A stretch of DNA of 35,256 bases from Candidatus Woesearchaeota archaeon (GTDB lineage: Archaea > Nanobdellota > Nanobdellia > Woesearchaeales > UBA10216), in NCBI GenBank assembly GCA_018303115.1, contig JAGVYT010000018.1, forward strand, positions 1-35,256. The letters are read 5' to 3'. Positions 1-27,240 of the stretch are shown piece by piece (position 1 is the first letter of the stretch; every line of letters begins with the position of its first letter). The translations under genes and the position numbers were made by a program. The notes under the pieces are model-generated. The model did not search any database, had not been told where the DNA came from, and saw nothing but the letters and a program-made list of their open reading frames with translations.

Positions 1-98
1 GCACTAAGAAGCGCAAAGCGCTTCTTATGACTAAGAACCACCAGTCTATGCTAACATAATGTTAAATCCCACCAGTCTTTGACTGGTGGTTCTTTAGA
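1..98 (+). repeat. Multi-hairpin repeat element, copy A (left part cut by window edge)
   Basis: GCAC then taagaagcgc-aaa-gcgcttctta hairpin, then aagaaccaccagtc...gactggtggttctt; ends in ggtggttctttaga as copies B and C do. Confidence 0.8.
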
Positions 99-586: not shown

Positions 587-3109
587 ATGCCAAGGAATAA
601 AGCAATAGTTGTTGAAGAAGAGGAGGTTGTTGAGTTGGGCAGGGAAAGCAATGTAAAAGAGACCAATGTTAATGAAATACCCGGAGTAGGGGCAGCTACC
701 GCTGAAAAGCTTATAGCTTCTGGTTATGATAACCTGCTTAGCATAGCGGTTTCCTCTCCCAGGGAGCTTGTAGGGCTTGCCGGAGTTACAGATGTTGTTG
801 CAAGGAAGATGATTCAGTATGCCAGGCAGAAGCTTGACCTCGGCTTTGAGTCAGGGGAGGATGCCCTTAAGAAGAGGGAGAGCGTTGAGAAAATATACTC
901 TGGAAGCAAGGCTTTGGACTCGCTTCTTGGCGGGGGTTTCGAAACGCGGGCTATAACAGAAGCCTTTGGGCAATACGGGAGCGGCAAGTGCGTATCAAAA
1001 GATACAAAGGTGTTGTATTTTAACAGCTCAAAATCGCACCTACAGCCAATAGAGGATGTTTATAACAAATACGCTGCTATGAATGGTGAGAAGCCGTTTG
1101 ATAATGGTTGCATAGTTGAAGTGCCTCAAGTAAGAGTCCTGGGCCTTACAGATGAAGGACTGGCTAGAACCAAAGCGACTGCCATATACAGGGAAAAAGT
1201 TCCAAAGCTGATAACTGTTAAAACAAAGCGCGGCAGGACTATTAAGATAACACCATCACATAAACTGCTAAGCTTTGACAATGGCATGCTATGGCAGCCA
1301 TCCGCAACGCTTCAGGCTGGAGCAGTAATTGCTCATCCAAAGGAAATAAGTGCAATCTCAGGATGCAATTTAACATCTGACGACGCATATTTTCTTGGTC
1401 TATTTGCAGCAGAAGGCACTTCAAACCCTTTATCGATATCAACTTCTTCAGTTGAGTTGAAAGATTGGGTTGCTAGCTATATCGAAAGAAAATTTAATTA
1501 CAAGCCTACGGTAAGGAAAGATACTAGACGGGAAACGCCAGCATATTATATACTCTTAAGAACCGAAACAGCGCTTTTCCTCGATAAACTTGGCACTTCA
1601 CATTCAGTTTCTAAATTTGTTCCGGAAAGCATTTTTGGAGCAAACGAAGGAGTAACCTCTGCTTTTCTGGGGGGTTATATGGATGGCGATGGTCATTACG
1701 GTAAGCTTACAGCAGAGGCAACTACAAAAAGCAAGGAACTTAAATCTGGACTAGCCTACCTATTCGCAAAATTAGGTATTACAGTAACATCAAGAAAGAA
1801 GGAAGTTAATGGCGATACTTTCTACAGGCTTAGCGTGGTAGGTGATGACAAAAGGAATTTACCGAAAATAATATCAAAAATAAAGAATTTTAGCTACTTG
1901 CCTAAGAACAGCAGCTACGGCTACCCTGTGCCGTTTATCAATTATGTAAAAAAAGTCTATAAGGAAACTCTTGGTGGCAATAGGGGAAGAACTGGCAAGG
2001 CTATTGGCAATAAGGATATGCGTGGCAATTTTTTCTACGAATATTTGGCAGGCATAAAAGCCCCTGCAGATGTTATGAATGAAAAAACTATGGAGGCTAT
2101 AAGATTGGCATTTTTTAACGGGCTTAAAGATTTATTGAGCGCGAGGGAAGCAATAGTAAATCTTGAAAGCCGGTCACAAAGCGAGTTTGTTAAAATGATA
2201 AATTCTTTGCCCTTTGCTTTCAACTCAATAGCGGAAAATATTGGCTTAAAAAAAGCAGGCATAAGGAATTATATGAGTAGAGGTATTGCCCCCCACAAAA
2301 TGGAATCATTGAAGAAAGTTCTTATTGACGAGATAGAAAAACGAAGCATAAAATTAGAATCTGCTCTTAAAACAATCAAAAACTTTGTTTATCTAAACTG
2401 GGACGTTGTTGAGCAAATTCAGGAGATTGATTATGATGATTACGTATACGACTTTGTTGTTCCAGAAGGACACAGCTTTGTTGGCGGAGAAATGCCAACT
2501 ATAATGCACAATACCCAGATTGGGCATGCTATCGCTACTAACTGCTTAAAGCAGTATCCGGATTCTTATGTTGTTTACATTGATACAGAATCCACGTTCA
2601 GGCCGGAGAGGATTGTTTCCATTGCCAAGAACATTGACTTGGATCCGGCTAGTGCGCTAAAAAGGATTAAAGTTGCCCGTGCTTTCAATTCAGACCACCA
2701 GGTTATACTGGCTGAGAAGGTTGAGGAGCTGGTAAAGCAGGGCTTGAACGTAAAGCTCGTGGTTGTTGACTCTCTAACAGCCCATTTCAGGGCGGAGTTT
2801 ATCGGCCGGGGCACTTTGGCTGACAGGCAGCAGAAAATAAACAAGCACCTGCATACTTTAATGAAGCTTGCTGAGGTGTACAACCTTGCGATTTACGTAA
2901 CCAACCAGGTTATGGCAAGGCCTGACGTGTTTTTTGGAGACCCGACAGAGGCCATTGGCGGGCATATAGTCGCGCATGCAACAACTTATCGCATGTACTT
3001 AAGGAGGGGCAAGAAGGGCTCCCGCGTGGCAAAGCTTGTTGACTCCCCTAACCTGCCAGAGGCAGAGGCAGCGTTCTATCTGGATGAAGTAGGCTTGAAG
3101 GATGTTTAG
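587..3109 (+). CDS. radA: DNA repair and recombination protein RadA, intein-containing precursor
   Basis: N-terminal HhH region (VNEIPGVGAATAEKL), split Walker A (GQYGSGK // TQIGHAIATN), Walker B (VKLVVVDSLTAHFRAEF), ADRQQKINKHLHTLMKLAEVYNLAIYVTNQVMARPD. Confidence 0.97.
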   Translation: MPRNKAIVVEEEEVVELGRESNVKETNVNEIPGVGAATAEKLIASGYDNLLSIAVSSPRELVGLAGVTDVVARKMIQYARQKLDLGFESGEDALKKRESVEKIYSGSKALDSLLGGGFETRAITEAFGQYGSGKCVSKDTKVLYFNSSKSHLQPIEDVYNKYAAMNGEKPFDNGCIVEVPQVRVLGLTDEGLARTKATAIYREKVPKLITVKTKRGRTIKITPSHKLLSFDNGMLWQPSATLQAGAVIAHPKEISAISGCNLTSDDAYFLGLFAAEGTSNPLSISTSSVELKDWVASYIERKFNYKPTVRKDTRRETPAYYILLRTETALFLDKLGTSHSVSKFVPESIFGANEGVTSAFLGGYMDGDGHYGKLTAEATTKSKELKSGLAYLFAKLGITVTSRKKEVNGDTFYRLSVVGDDKRNLPKIISKIKNFSYLPKNSSYGYPVPFINYVKKVYKETLGGNRGRTGKAIGNKDMRGNFFYEYLAGIKAPADVMNEKTMEAIRLAFFNGLKDLLSAREAIVNLESRSQSEFVKMINSLPFAFNSIAENIGLKKAGIRNYMSRGIAPHKMESLKKVLIDEIEKRSIKLESALKTIKNFVYLNWDVVEQIQEIDYDDYVYDFVVPEGHSFVGGEMPTIMHNTQIGHAIATNCLKQYPDSYVVYIDTESTFRPERIVSIAKNIDLDPASALKRIKVARAFNSDHQVILAEKVEELVKQGLNVKLVVVDSLTAHFRAEFIGRGTLADRQQKINKHLHTLMKLAEVYNLAIYVTNQVMARPDVFFGDPTEAIGGHIVAHATTYRMYLRRGKKGSRVAKLVDSPNLPEAEAAFYLDEVGLKDV
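989..2512 (+). mobile_element. RadA intein (508 aa) with LAGLIDADG/DOD homing endonuclease
   Basis: Starts with Cys directly after GSGK, ends with His-Asn directly before Thr; N-terminal block CVSKDTKVLYF, block-B-like TIKITPSHKLLSF, endonuclease motifs YFLGLFAAEG and FLGGYMDGDGHYG, C-terminal YDFVVPEGHSFVGGEMPTIMHN. Confidence 0.95.
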
Positions 3110-3843: not shown

Positions 3844-4440
3844 ATGGACGCAATTGAGCAAGCACAAGAATTTGAAAGAATTCTTAAAATGTCAGAATTT
3901 TCCATCAGTCTATGACTGATGGCAAGCTTCGCTTGCTGTTGGTATTTTGCAGACTGGAAAATTCTGAGCACTAAGAACCACCCCGTCTCTGACGGGTGGT
4001 TCTTTAGAACTGCACAAGCTTATGGCCTGAGATTAGAACTTATGGCTAGAAGAAATCAAATTCTTTCTAACATACATAGCGTAGAGGATATTAATACTGT
4101 AGCAAGAAGTCTTCTAAATGTGCTTGAAAAAGAAAGAAGAATCATAAATATTATTTTGAGTGAGGACGAATTAGAAAGAAGAAATATCGATATTGCTATA
4201 GATACACTATTTAAAGTGAGGAAAGAGCCTGCCATAATAGATGAACTGAAAAGGCGAAATATCGATTTTGAAAAATTAAGAGAGGCCGCAGGAATTGGTT
4301 TAACAATATTGAAAGGGATGGCAAAAAGACTGAAGCACATTATAAGAAGAATTGAACTTAAGGAAGCATTGATTAGCAATCCGACATCTCAAAATTTCAA
4401 GAATTATTTAAAGCAGTGGGGCAGAGATATTGTATTATAG
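3844..4440 (+). pseudogene. Helical hypothetical gene interrupted by multi-hairpin repeat B
   Basis: TATA (tattaaataa, 3811-3820) about 29 nt upstream of ATG 3844; MDAIEQAQEFERILK continues in the same frame after the repeat as TAQAYGLRLELMARRNQILSNIHSVED... The only in-frame stop is TGA 3913-3915, inside the repeat. Confidence 0.65.
3885..4008 (+). repeat. Multi-hairpin repeat element, copy B
   Basis: taaaatgtcagaattttcc...ggaaaattctgagcactaagaaccacc...ggtggttctttaga; about 124 bp; near-identical in inverted orientation at 26860-27008. Confidence 0.9.
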
Positions 4441-9442: not shown

Positions 9443-9480
9443 GCATATTCTGAGGCTTATTTAAAGTTTATCCATGAGCT

Positions 9481-9539
9481 TGGTTAAGGCGGGGAAAATT
9501 CAGCCGCATGACGGCAAATAAGGTAATCGAGCAGGGACT
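9481..9539. repeat. 59-bp dispersed repeat, copy 1
   Basis: tggttaaggcggggaaaattcagccgcatgacggcaaataaggtaatcgagcaggga; second copy at 24975-25033. Confidence 0.8.
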
Positions 9540-9600
9540 TTTCAATGACGCCCATATGAAGAAAACCTTTAAATAACAACTGTCAAGTTGCTTTTGTAAC

Positions 9601-14026: not shown

Positions 14027-14130
14027 GGTCCTGTCCTAAATCCTGTTCGTGTAGCTACTGCATACCCTCAAACCTGTTCTCCAAAACTTCTATGACCACT
14101 CTATGGCTCACATACGGCAGAGCAGGAGGG
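14027..14130. repeat. 104-bp repeat, copy 1 (truncated element end)
   Basis: 99/104 identical by eye to the reverse complement of 27015-27118; begins with terminus-like ggtcctgtcctaaatc and enters the 3' end of the 14108-16336 CDS. Confidence 0.88.
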
Positions 14131-17509: not shown

Positions 17510-17643
17510 GGCTCTGTCCTGAGACTTTGCTTGCACCTTTTGTAGCTCTCCTTCTTTACTTTCCCACTCCTTGCTTTGCAGAGGAGGGGGAAAGTAAAAA
17601 GGAAGCGATAAACATGCGAGAAAGCGCTTTTAGGACAACGCCT
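17510..17643. repeat. GGC..TGTCCT inverted-repeat element F1
   Basis: Left ggctctgtcctgaga, right cttttaggacaacgcc; 17600-17643 matches the inverse of 26808-26861. Confidence 0.6.
17554..17599. other. Long hairpin
   Basis: ctttactttcccactcc ... ggagggggaaagtaaa, about 16-17 bp stem with about one mismatch. Confidence 0.75.
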
Positions 17644-21294: not shown

Positions 21295-21414
21295 GGTAAT
21301 TTCAAGTTAGCTGTCAAGCCTATTCCCCTTCTGCTTGCCCTGTTTCATCTCCCACTACGCAATGCAAGGGGGAGTGAAACAGGGGCGAGCCAAGGCGCAT
21401 AACTTTGCATTACC
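21295..21414. repeat. GGTAAT...ATTACC inverted-repeat element E2 with internal hairpin
   Basis: ggtaatttcaagtta ... taactttgcattacc (12/15 arm identity) enclosing gccctgtttcatctccc/ggggagtgaaacagggg-type hairpin. Confidence 0.65.
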
Positions 21415-21504
21415 CTATATGACTAAACTTAAATAATAGTTCTTGTTTTCGCATAACTTGGCATTACCCTATATGACTAAACTTAAATAATAGTTCTTGT
21501 TTTC
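21397..21504 (+). promoter_or_regulatory. 54-bp tandem duplication carrying a TATA promoter
   Basis: gcataact(t/g)gcattaccctatatgactaaacttaaataatagttcttgttttc, two head-to-tail copies (21397-21450, 21451-21504) with one mismatch. Confidence 0.9.
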
Positions 21505-24858: not shown

Positions 24859-24974
24859 AGCAAAATGCAGTCAAACATAATCTTTTAAAGGTTTTTGTTG
24901 GAAGGCGGTATTGAAAAGTTACTCCGTGTTGCCATGCCCCGGCGCTGCAGTGCTGAATTTCTCCCCTCCATGCC

Positions 24975-25033
24975 TGGTTAAGGCGTGGAAAATTCAGCCG
25001 CATGACGGCAAACAGGGCAATCGGGCAGGGACA
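24975..25033. repeat. 59-bp dispersed repeat, copy 2
   Basis: tggttaaggcgtggaaaattcagccgcatgacggcaaacagggcaatcgggcagggac; supplies the stop codon of the overlapping GtrA-like ORF. Confidence 0.8.
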
Positions 25034-25544
25034 TGTCAAAACCACTGCGGGCTAATGTCAGAAATGTCAGGAACAAGTTCCTGAGCACCATCAGAAGCAT
25101 TAGCTTCTGAGGCCAAATGTTTCTGAGCACAGTCAAAAATGGAGTATTTTTGATGAGCCCACAGCGTGCGGTTTTAAAGCTAATGATAGTGTCACTAATC
25201 GGAAGCTCCAGCACAACCCTGCCAAAGGAAAATAAAGCCCAGTTGAAAAAAGCTATTAATATGACCAGTATGGAGAACTGCACAAAACGGAACTGCAGGT
25301 TTGTTTTAATCCTGAACGTAACAAGAACGTGGTAAACAAAAGTGAAAACAATTGCAAAAAACATGCCGATGCCGTAGGAAACAGCTGGATGCAAGGAATA
25401 AGTATCTCGGAAAAATATGTGAGAGCCGATAAGTATAAGCCAGCCGATAAGGCCGCCAAAGACGAATATCAAATAGCGCCTGACAGTGCCAAAAAAAGAC
25501 TCGCCAGTCAGGCGGTGCTGGTAATGCAAAGCCCTTCTAATCAT
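24978..25544 (-). CDS. GtrA-like membrane protein with repeat-derived C-terminus (possibly degraded)
   Basis: RRYLIFVFGGLIGWLILIGSHIFFRDTYSLHPAVSYGIGMFFAIVFTFVYHVLVTF is GtrA-like; about the last 60 codons are repeat sequence. Confidence 0.6.
   Translation of the reverse strand: MIRRALHYQHRLTGESFFGTVRRYLIFVFGGLIGWLILIGSHIFFRDTYSLHPAVSYGIGMFFAIVFTFVYHVLVTFRIKTNLQFRFVQFSILVILIAFFNWALFSFGRVVLELPISDTIISFKTARCGLIKNTPFLTVLRNIWPQKLMLLMVLRNLFLTFLTLARSGFDMSLPDCPVCRHAAEFSTP
25056..25153 (+). repeat. Multi-hairpin repeat element, diverged copy D
   Basis: Outer tcagaaa/tttctga (25058-25064/25120-25126) encloses tcaggaac-aa-gttcctga and tcagaagc-atta-gcttctga, then gagcac, then tcaaaaat-ggagt-atttttga. 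Confidence 0.7.
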
Positions 25545-25676
25545 TCTGGCAGAACATCTTCTAAAGGATTTATAAAGTTTTGGGATGCGGCGGGTAGCTC
25601 TTGAACCCCTTTCTTCTTAGGGGAGGAAAAAGTGTAAAAATAGGAAACAACTGACAAAAAGCCGGTTGACAGGCAC

Positions 25677-26762
25677 TTATTTGCCCTTAATCACGTCGCA
25701 AACCCGCTTAATGTCCTCTTCAACGAGGAGCGTTGAGGACGGGAGGTTGACCCCTTTTCTTGAAAGCCCCGAGGCTATTGGAAAGCCGTTTCCCTTGTAA
25801 GGGGGAAGCTCGTGCATTGGTATAAAGAAAGGCCTTGAATCAATGCCTGCTTCTTTCAGCTCCTTCATCAGCTCATCGCGGCTGCACCTAAAATCGCCCT
25901 CAACAAGGATGGAATGGAGCCAGAAAACAGACTTTGCATAAGGCTCTTCTGGCTGGAAAGTAATGCCTGGGGTTCTGTCAAGCAATTTGCGGTATAGCTT
26001 TGCATGCTTGATTTTAGTGGCAATAATGTCGTCTATCCTTTCAAGCTGTGCGAGCCCAATAGCCGCCTGCAAGTTGGTCATTCTGAAATTAAACCCGACT
26101 TCAGGATGGTAGTAATAAGGCCTTGTCATGCCATGGTCTTTCAGGAAGCGCATGCGCTTGACAAGTTTTTCATCATTTGTAACGCACATGCCGCCCTCCC
26201 CAGTTGTTAAAATTTTGTTGCCGTAAAAGCTGAAGCAGCCCACATCGCCAAGGCTGCCCACCTTCTTCCCCTTATACTCTGCACCGTGAGCCTCTGCGCA
26301 ATCCTCAACCACGAACAGTCTGTTCTCCCTGGCTATCTCAAGAATCGGGCCCATGTCGCATGGATGCCCGTAAAGATGGACTGGAATTATCGCCTTGGTT
26401 TTCGGAGTGATTTTTTCCATGATTTTCGCAACGTCAATGTTCCACGTATTTTTGTCAGCGTCAACAAAAACAGGCCTGGCGCCGGTATAAGTGACTGCGT
26501 TTGCCGTTGCTATAAAGGTAAAGTCAGGAACTATAACTTCGTGCCCCTTTCCAATCCCAAGAGCGGCAAGGGCAAGATGCAATGCAACTGTGCCGTTAAA
26601 AACAGAAACCCCGTAACCCGCACCGCAATAACTGCTGAACTTCTCCTCAAATTCGGTAATGTATTTCCCGAGGCTGGAAATCCAGGTGCTGTCAATGCAG
26701 TCCATCACATACTTGCGCTCGTTCCCCCTCAAGTCAGGCTCCGCAACAGGCAAAAACTTCAT
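25677..26762 (-). CDS. DegT/DnrJ/EryC1-family PLP-dependent sugar aminotransferase
   Basis: NERKYVMDCIDSTWISSLGKYITEFEEKF, FNGTVALHLALAALGIGKGHEVIVPDFTFIATANAV, EDCAEAHGAEYKGKKVGSLGDVGCFSFYGNKILTTGEGGM. Confidence 0.96.
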   Translation of the reverse strand: MKFLPVAEPDLRGNERKYVMDCIDSTWISSLGKYITEFEEKFSSYCGAGYGVSVFNGTVALHLALAALGIGKGHEVIVPDFTFIATANAVTYTGARPVFVDADKNTWNIDVAKIMEKITPKTKAIIPVHLYGHPCDMGPILEIARENRLFVVEDCAEAHGAEYKGKKVGSLGDVGCFSFYGNKILTTGEGGMCVTNDEKLVKRMRFLKDHGMTRPYYYHPEVGFNFRMTNLQAAIGLAQLERIDDIIATKIKHAKLYRKLLDRTPGITFQPEEPYAKSVFWLHSILVEGDFRCSRDELMKELKEAGIDSRPFFIPMHELPPYKGNGFPIASGLSRKGVNLPSSTLLVEEDIKRVCDVIKGK

Positions 26763-26859
26763 AGAAAAAAGGATGGTAAACTGATTTATAAAGGTTTATC
26801 AAGTTTGGGCGTTGTCCTAAAAGGGCTTTCTCACATATTCTCGCATGTTTATCGCTTCC

Positions 26860-27008
26860 TCTAAAGAACCACCCGTCAGAGACAGGTTGGATTATGTGAC
26901 TATTGTGATGGGTGGTTCTTAGTGCTCAGAATTTTCCAGTTTGCAAAATGCCAACAGCAAGCGAAGCTTGCTATCAGTAATAGACTGATGGAAAATTCTG
27001 ACATTTTA
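26860..27008 (-). repeat. Multi-hairpin repeat element, copy C (inverted relative to B)
   Basis: Reverse complement reads taaaatgtcagaattttccatcagtctattactgatagcaagcttcgcttgctgttggcattttgcaaactggaaaattctgagcactaagaaccaccc...ggtggttctttaga. Confidence 0.9.
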
Positions 27009-27014
27009 CCTCCT

Positions 27015-27118
27015 CCCTCCTGCTCTGCCGTATGTGAGCCATAGAGTGCTCATAGAAGTTTTGGAGAACAGGTTTGAGGGTATGCAGTAGCTACACGAAC
27101 ATGATTTAGGACAACGCC
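27015..27118. repeat. 104-bp repeat, copy 2 (inverted relative to 14027-14130)
   Basis: ccctcctgctctgccgtatgtgagccatagag...acgaacatgatttaggacaacgcc; ungapped, 5 mismatches by eye. Confidence 0.88.
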
Positions 27119-27128
27119 ATAGCCACAA

Positions 27129-27196
27129 GATAAAGTCAAGTTACGTGTTTTAGGGCGAGAAGAAGGAAAGCGGTTGCCACTTAACTTGACATTACC
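27129..27196. repeat. GGTAAT...ATTACC inverted-repeat element E3
   Basis: gataaagtcaagttacgtg ... cacttaacttgacattacc; 16/19 arm identity. Confidence 0.65.
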
Positions 27197-27240
27197 TAAC
27201 CACAACAACTTTTATATAGCAACATTTTCTTCCGCTTTTT

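Follow-up and report, generated by a model that had tools for sequence, protein, structure and literature searches.

Nested hairpin clusters in a Woesearchaeota genome as probable non-autonomous elements of IS200/IS605 type

Insertion sequences of the IS200/IS605 group, such as IS608 and ISDra2, are characterized by subterminal hairpins, a fixed short target at the left, guide bases 5' of the hairpin, and insertion that leaves the target unduplicated. In the archaeon Haloquadratum walsbyi, palindrome-associated transposable elements (PATEs) have palindromes near both ends, carry no transposase gene, do not duplicate their target, and possess ends related to those of IS605-type transposons (PMC3119063). 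The stretch of DNA analysed here, which we call the window, comprises 35,256 nucleotides and forms contig C7 of a Candidatus Woesearchaeota genome of 993,512 bases (45 contigs, about 96% complete), and it contains several hairpin clusters, among them copies B, C, and D. We conclude that these clusters are probably (with a probability of roughly 0.8) mobile elements that resemble PATEs and REPINs, are non-autonomous, and belong to the IS200/IS605 (HUH/Y1 transposase) type. The initial annotation had offered an IS200/IS605-like origin as one of two options, and it is well supported by the lack of target duplication, by exact empty sites, by ends resembling those of a Y1 transposon, and by a Y1 gene on another contig.

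The hairpin clusters are present in far more copies than expected by chance. Hairpins of the pattern TCAGAA-N(4..34)-TTCTGA were found 68 times in the ~1 Mb source genome, against 2 for the reversed-pattern control, and the same pattern occurred 33-34 times in a genome of the same genus (G018; control, 2) and 16 times in G017 (control, 1). Copy D is one of dozens of related clusters, with further copies both in its own genome and in related genera. Copies were collected by sequence search combined with the reading of individual genome stretches. Using B as a query, we obtained matches on many contigs of the source genome, several of them at contig ends, and B-type matches in 12/19 family genomes (counting the source genome), including one in another genus with 96% identity across 149 nt. 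A DNA-pattern scan of named genomes placed the elements in Candidatus Woesearchaeota assemblies, mainly from groundwater together with one marine bin. Pattern matches in Thiomargarita, Aenigmatarchaeota, WWE3, Nitrosopumilus, Lachnospiraceae, and one bacterium were dismissed as chance upon reading the sequences, which contained no hairpins, and the element was not found in the viral contigs searched. Other features of the window include a RadA gene with an intein bearing a LAGLIDADG domain (587-3109; Pfam) and, at 21396-21503, a 54-nt sequence that is present in two tandem copies (98% identity) immediately upstream of a glycosyltransferase-like ORF.

Empty sites fixed the ends of the elements. 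Copy B (3890-4007, forward strand) runs from TGTCAG to TTTAG and directly follows the target AAAA (3886-3889), while copy C (143 nt; 26861-27003, reverse strand) is inserted in a MITE at 26808-27118, with terminal repeats GGCGTTGTCCTAAA / TTTAGGACAACGCC, and adjoins a target AAAA that is the complement of 27004-27007. Both clusters had been recognized correctly by the initial annotation, which placed their limits at 3885-4008 and 26860-27008; we reset the ends to TGTCAG and TTTAG. Another copy of C's host MITE is unoccupied, and at 17594-17621 (forward strand) it matches the joined flanks of C exactly over 28 nt. Locus L007, upon removal of its element, likewise shows a 23-nt exact match across the junction to an unoccupied MITE in L047. 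Compared with these unoccupied copies, the target bases at C and L007 are not duplicated and AAAA is present in the empty sites. The AAAA to the left of the element belongs to the target; it stands directly before 22/29 B-type copies. Two earlier candidates, TAA as part of the element and a TA duplication, were dropped, as the MITE empty sites set the ends at TGTCAG and TTTAG. The MITE family concerned is represented in the window at 26808-27118, 17593-17642, and 14032-14130 and at loci L020, L035, L047, and L052; some copies carry an extra 53-nt hairpin segment, and the family is a repeated host of B-type elements. At the contig edge (1-97, forward strand) lies a truncated B-type right half that contains an extra inserted hairpin, AAGCGCAAAGCGCTT, between TAAG and AACCACC. 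In a further B-type copy (L010; G000:C11:21980-22075), the segment enclosed by the outer stem arms runs in the opposite orientation to that of L007 and L008, as recombination between the arms predicts.

Copy D proved to be larger and differently built than first described. All arms that the initial annotation named for the hairpin clusters are found at their positions and its extent for D, 25056-25153, is real, but this span covers only the inner two-hairpin unit (TGTCAGAAA..TTTCTGA, linker GCACAG, then TCAAAAATGGAGTATTTTTGA at 25133-25153) of a composite that reaches from about 25034 to 25176 on the forward strand, with outer arms TGTCAAAACCAC (25034-25045) and GTGCGGTTTTA (25166-25176) around the nested hairpins. 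Inside the inner unit sits a 48-nt two-hairpin module, TGTCAGGAAC..GTTCCTGAGCACCATCAGAAGC..GCTTCTGAGG (25065-25112, forward strand). Locus L034 corresponds to the inner unit minus this module, its flanks joining cleanly between AGAAA and CCAAATG (insert 48, shared junction bases 0), and in L032 and L033 the D-type 48-nt module is accompanied by a second one of 51 nt. D thus differs in layout from B and C because whole two-hairpin modules were inserted: D is not a B/C element with swapped stems but a composite with one complete module inside another. It has no second terminal hairpin, which its fuller relatives L172, L164, and L173 possess. On its left side D is fused to a second MITE family, represented there by its left portion (24904-25033, forward strand; GGCGGTATTGAAAAG...); a fuller copy of this MITE ends at 9538-9552 (CTTTTCAATGACGCC). 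This second family, with ends of about GGCGTCATTGAAAAGT / ACTTTTCAATGACGCC, occurs at 9478-9552 and 24904-25033 of the window and at L034-L036, L041, and L042, and in three copies it is fused with D-type elements and has lost its right end there.

The same grammar underlies the short and the long forms. The basic unit is a hairpin pair, TGTCA-hairpin-TGAGCA(TG)-hairpin, ending in TGACA or TTTAG. Stand-alone small modules (TGTCA-hairpin-TGAGCATGCTCA-hairpin-TGACA; L148, L162, L164, L167, L169) are inverted dimers of two hairpins with the palindromic centre GAGCATGCTC, the hairpins being repeatedly spaced by 6 nt. In B/C-type elements the arrangement is the same, except that the first hairpin, TCAGAATTTTCC..GGAAAATTCTGA, is longer and encloses a pair of inner hairpins, and the second ends in TTTAG. 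Variants at L021, L070, L072, and L137 have the linker GAGCATG(C/A)TCA or similar and the end TTGACA. Elements of 118-149 nt carry a hairpin near each end and no transposase gene. Two-hairpin modules of 46-51 nt were gained or lost precisely, with 0-1 shared junction bases in most cases, and clean gain or loss was also seen between CAGAAT and TTTCC (in a B-type stem), TAAG and AACCACC (in the right hairpin), and GAGCATG and CTCAG (between hairpins). A dispersed hairpin repeat, CCACTGGACACTGGACA ... TGTCCCACTGG, lies at 107-186 of the window and at L012 and L168, the L168 copy holding an inserted two-hairpin module. The inverted dimers, their palindromic centre, the recurrent 6-nt spacing, and the exactness of module gain or loss could also be read as the signature of a REPIN/RAYT-like system, in which what actually moves are the dimers of ~50 nt, multiplied by a domesticated enzyme of the TnpA-REP type, and the long B/C forms are secondary. 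The foot of the hairpins is TGTC/GCTC, however, and lacks the GTAG/GTGG or CGTC tag.

Pairing is conserved where stem sequences change, albeit in a narrower sense than initially proposed. Within the B/C family across genera, four pairs of inner hairpin 1 are changed on both sides, with a covariation score that 0/500 shuffles reached, a control that is weakened by the relatedness of the copies. Inner hairpin 2, counted by hand (MAFFT misaligns this helix, with stem lengths of 15 vs 19 nt), shows A-T/G-C, G-C/A-T, and C-G/A-T exchanges across genera. These compensatory changes are genuine; the earlier claim that structure is kept while stems change holds for B/C-type copies, whereas the difference in stems between B and D reflects the insertion of a nested module. 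As single strands, B, C, and D fold with z = -8.3, -7.2, and -5.0, respectively, relative to dinucleotide shuffles, none of which folded as well. Perfect palindromes make up 36/44 listed short hairpins, with loops of <=5 nt and at least 10 different distal stems. A structured non-coding RNA family or cis-acting RNA element under selection for base pairing, the other option of the initial annotation, would account for the compensatory changes in the inner hairpins, but transposase-read hairpins would give the same covariation. It also found no positive support: Rfam gave no match, either at the gathering score or, over 24900-27200, when E values as high as 1 were admitted, and B, C, and D show no consistent position relative to genes, B overlapping the 5' portion of an ORF, C lying within its MITE between divergent genes, and D at the end of a gene. 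We therefore consider an RNA function hardly credible. The reading frames flanking B do not join cleanly, and we hence do not claim that B broke a gene; a search for its empty site by way of the ORF downstream of B gave no homolog in the family.

The non-autonomous reading calls for an enzyme supplied from elsewhere. The initial annotation was right that the window contains no Y1 gene, and the sole Y1 gene found in the genome lies on contig C23. It is apparently intact and encodes 160 aa (Pfam PF01797, E=2e-15) with the motifs NHVH and YIRKQ (Y---Q). The nearest solved relatives of the protein are the transposases 2fyx and 2xm3/2xma/2xo6, all of which we take to be ISDra2-type TnpA, and it is 68% identical to a Y1 protein of another family member (G005). 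Its NHVH and Y---Q motifs fit the IS200 class (PMC6006769). Several copies of the G005 transposon, with differing flanks on both sides, defined exact ends that run from TCAGAATTCC, directly after TTTAA, to CCGCCGGTCTCTGACCGGCGGTTGTTTAA, and in three copies TTTAA and TCAGAATTCC follow differing upstream flanks. This IS200-type element (664 nt, target TTTAA) occurs in near-identical copies at several contig ends (C1, C3, C4, C5, and C6; L177, L184, L191, L206, L209, L212).

The ends of the hairpin elements resemble those of the transposon. Element L208 begins with TGTCAGAATTCC after TTTAA (TTTAA followed by TGTCAGAATTCCACC), close to the left end of the G005 transposon, the common left end of Y1 transposon and hairpin element being TTTAA followed by T(GT)CAGAATTCC. 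At the right, the B-type hairpin with its 8-nt tail is 27/34 identical to the right end of the genome's own and the G005 Y1 elements, with compensatory differences at two of the base pairs. Across 683,628 bases searched, all remaining 34-mers that reached >=24 matches proved to be right ends of hairpin elements, and the background went no higher than 22. The source genome has a single Y1 copy, the left end of which is unlike that of the hairpin elements. In a marine Woesearchaeota bin (L137), a hairpin element starts right after sequence that resembles the downstream right end of another Y1 gene (L094, L096: ...CCCCTTATTTCAT). For the REPIN/RAYT-like alternative, the Y1 data are unfavourable, since other hairpins and not the small modules flank the genome's own Y1 gene and Y---Q is the IS200-class motif, not that of class 2 (PMC6006769, PMC3733652), and we deem it unlikely.

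Y1 genes were found in only 6/19 family genomes and in none of the hairpin-carrying genomes G014, G017, and G018, which may mean that the enzyme was lost, acts from elsewhere, or is not the mover. The presence of copies where no Y1 gene was found would fit a replication error without any transposase, in which hairpins are copied through template switching at cruciforms, a process that also keeps stems perfectly paired; the near-universal perfection of the stems, the lack of target duplication, and insertions that fall in palindromes agree with it as well. Such errors would not be expected, however, to place the same whole elements, with fixed ends and target and up to 96% identity, at unrelated sites across genera, nor to give them the ends of a transposon, so that we regard this explanation as very improbable.

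We suggest that the Y1 enzyme of the genome, or a lost relative, moves the elements through single-strand steps. Acting in trans, the transposase would read the hairpins while the DNA is single-stranded. Its left cut would fall just 3' of a short A/T-rich target, which is AAAA for copies B and C and TTAA for other elements, and its right cut behind TTTAG or a comparable tail; the element would then be joined in at a new site, leaving the target unduplicated. As the elements are palindromic, their arms and loops would themselves serve as landing sites, such that modules nest and the layout of D arises. The putative guide bases agree in part with this scheme: the left guide 5' of the hairpin foot covaries with the target, TTTT accompanying AAAA (22/29 copies) and AATT accompanying TTAA, while on the right AATC goes with TTTAG in 20 copies and AATT with TTTAA in 5. 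The pairs TTTT/AAAA, AATT/TTAA, and AATC/TTAG fit the guide rule of IS200/IS605 elements (PMC6006769), although common descent of the B-type copies that have a given guide leaves few independent events behind this agreement, and a simple guide-target rule does not hold for the TTGACA-ended variants, in which the guide is CATT or CATG. The near-symmetric ends of the smallest modules, unlike those of IS200 elements, count against the IS200-type reading. A bolder extension, which we put forward as a doubtful but conceivable idea, is a self-nesting economy in which one structure-reading, stem-tolerant Y1 enzyme moves everything from 48-nt pairs to 150-nt elements, mutual palindromes act as landing pads, architectures arise by insertion, and the target follows the guide bases.

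So far, PATEs, small mobile repeats, and REPINs have been known as distinct systems, whereas here a single archaeal lineage shows a gradation that has a Y1 transposon at one extreme, minimal hairpin dimers at the other, and two-hairpin elements between them, in a series that comes with empty sites and in which changes of guide and target predict the insertion site of each variant. It provides a natural test of how far a Y1 transposase tolerates changed stems, and the hairpin elements explain some of the contig breaks that repeats cause, and some of the changes at gene edges, in these small DPANN genomes.

Within the incomplete body of open-access literature that was searched, we found no description of such elements in Woesearchaeota. 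Mitochondrial double-hairpin or repetitive hairpin elements (PMC2800124) are likewise mobile-looking single and tandem hairpins across intergenic DNA, but they are organellar, have no known enzyme, and are unrelated to IS200 ends. REPINs and GTAG/CGTC-tagged REP dimers (PMC3116915, PMC3733652) are inverted dimers of short hairpins in many copies, some in palindromes, and the CGTC-type dimers likewise occur without a linked transposase; they differ in their foot sequence, while our elements go with an IS200-class Y1 enzyme rather than a RAYT and include long forms with target-specific insertion. The IS200/IS605 insertion sequences share the hairpin, target, and guide features set out above, in contrast to which the hairpin copies have no transposase gene. 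The SMR-A small mobile repeats of Haloquadratum (PMC3119063), which are short, have inverted ends, and do not duplicate their target, insert inside palindromes of PATEs and IS605-type elements and are the closest precedent for nesting; they are about 110 bp long and unlike their targets, whereas here guest and host come from one family. All the features for which the present analysis had a clear outcome are shared with PATEs (PMC3119063), from which the Woesearchaeota elements differ in their host lineage, in terminal hairpins that hold nested two-hairpin modules, and in a size series that extends down to about 48 nt.
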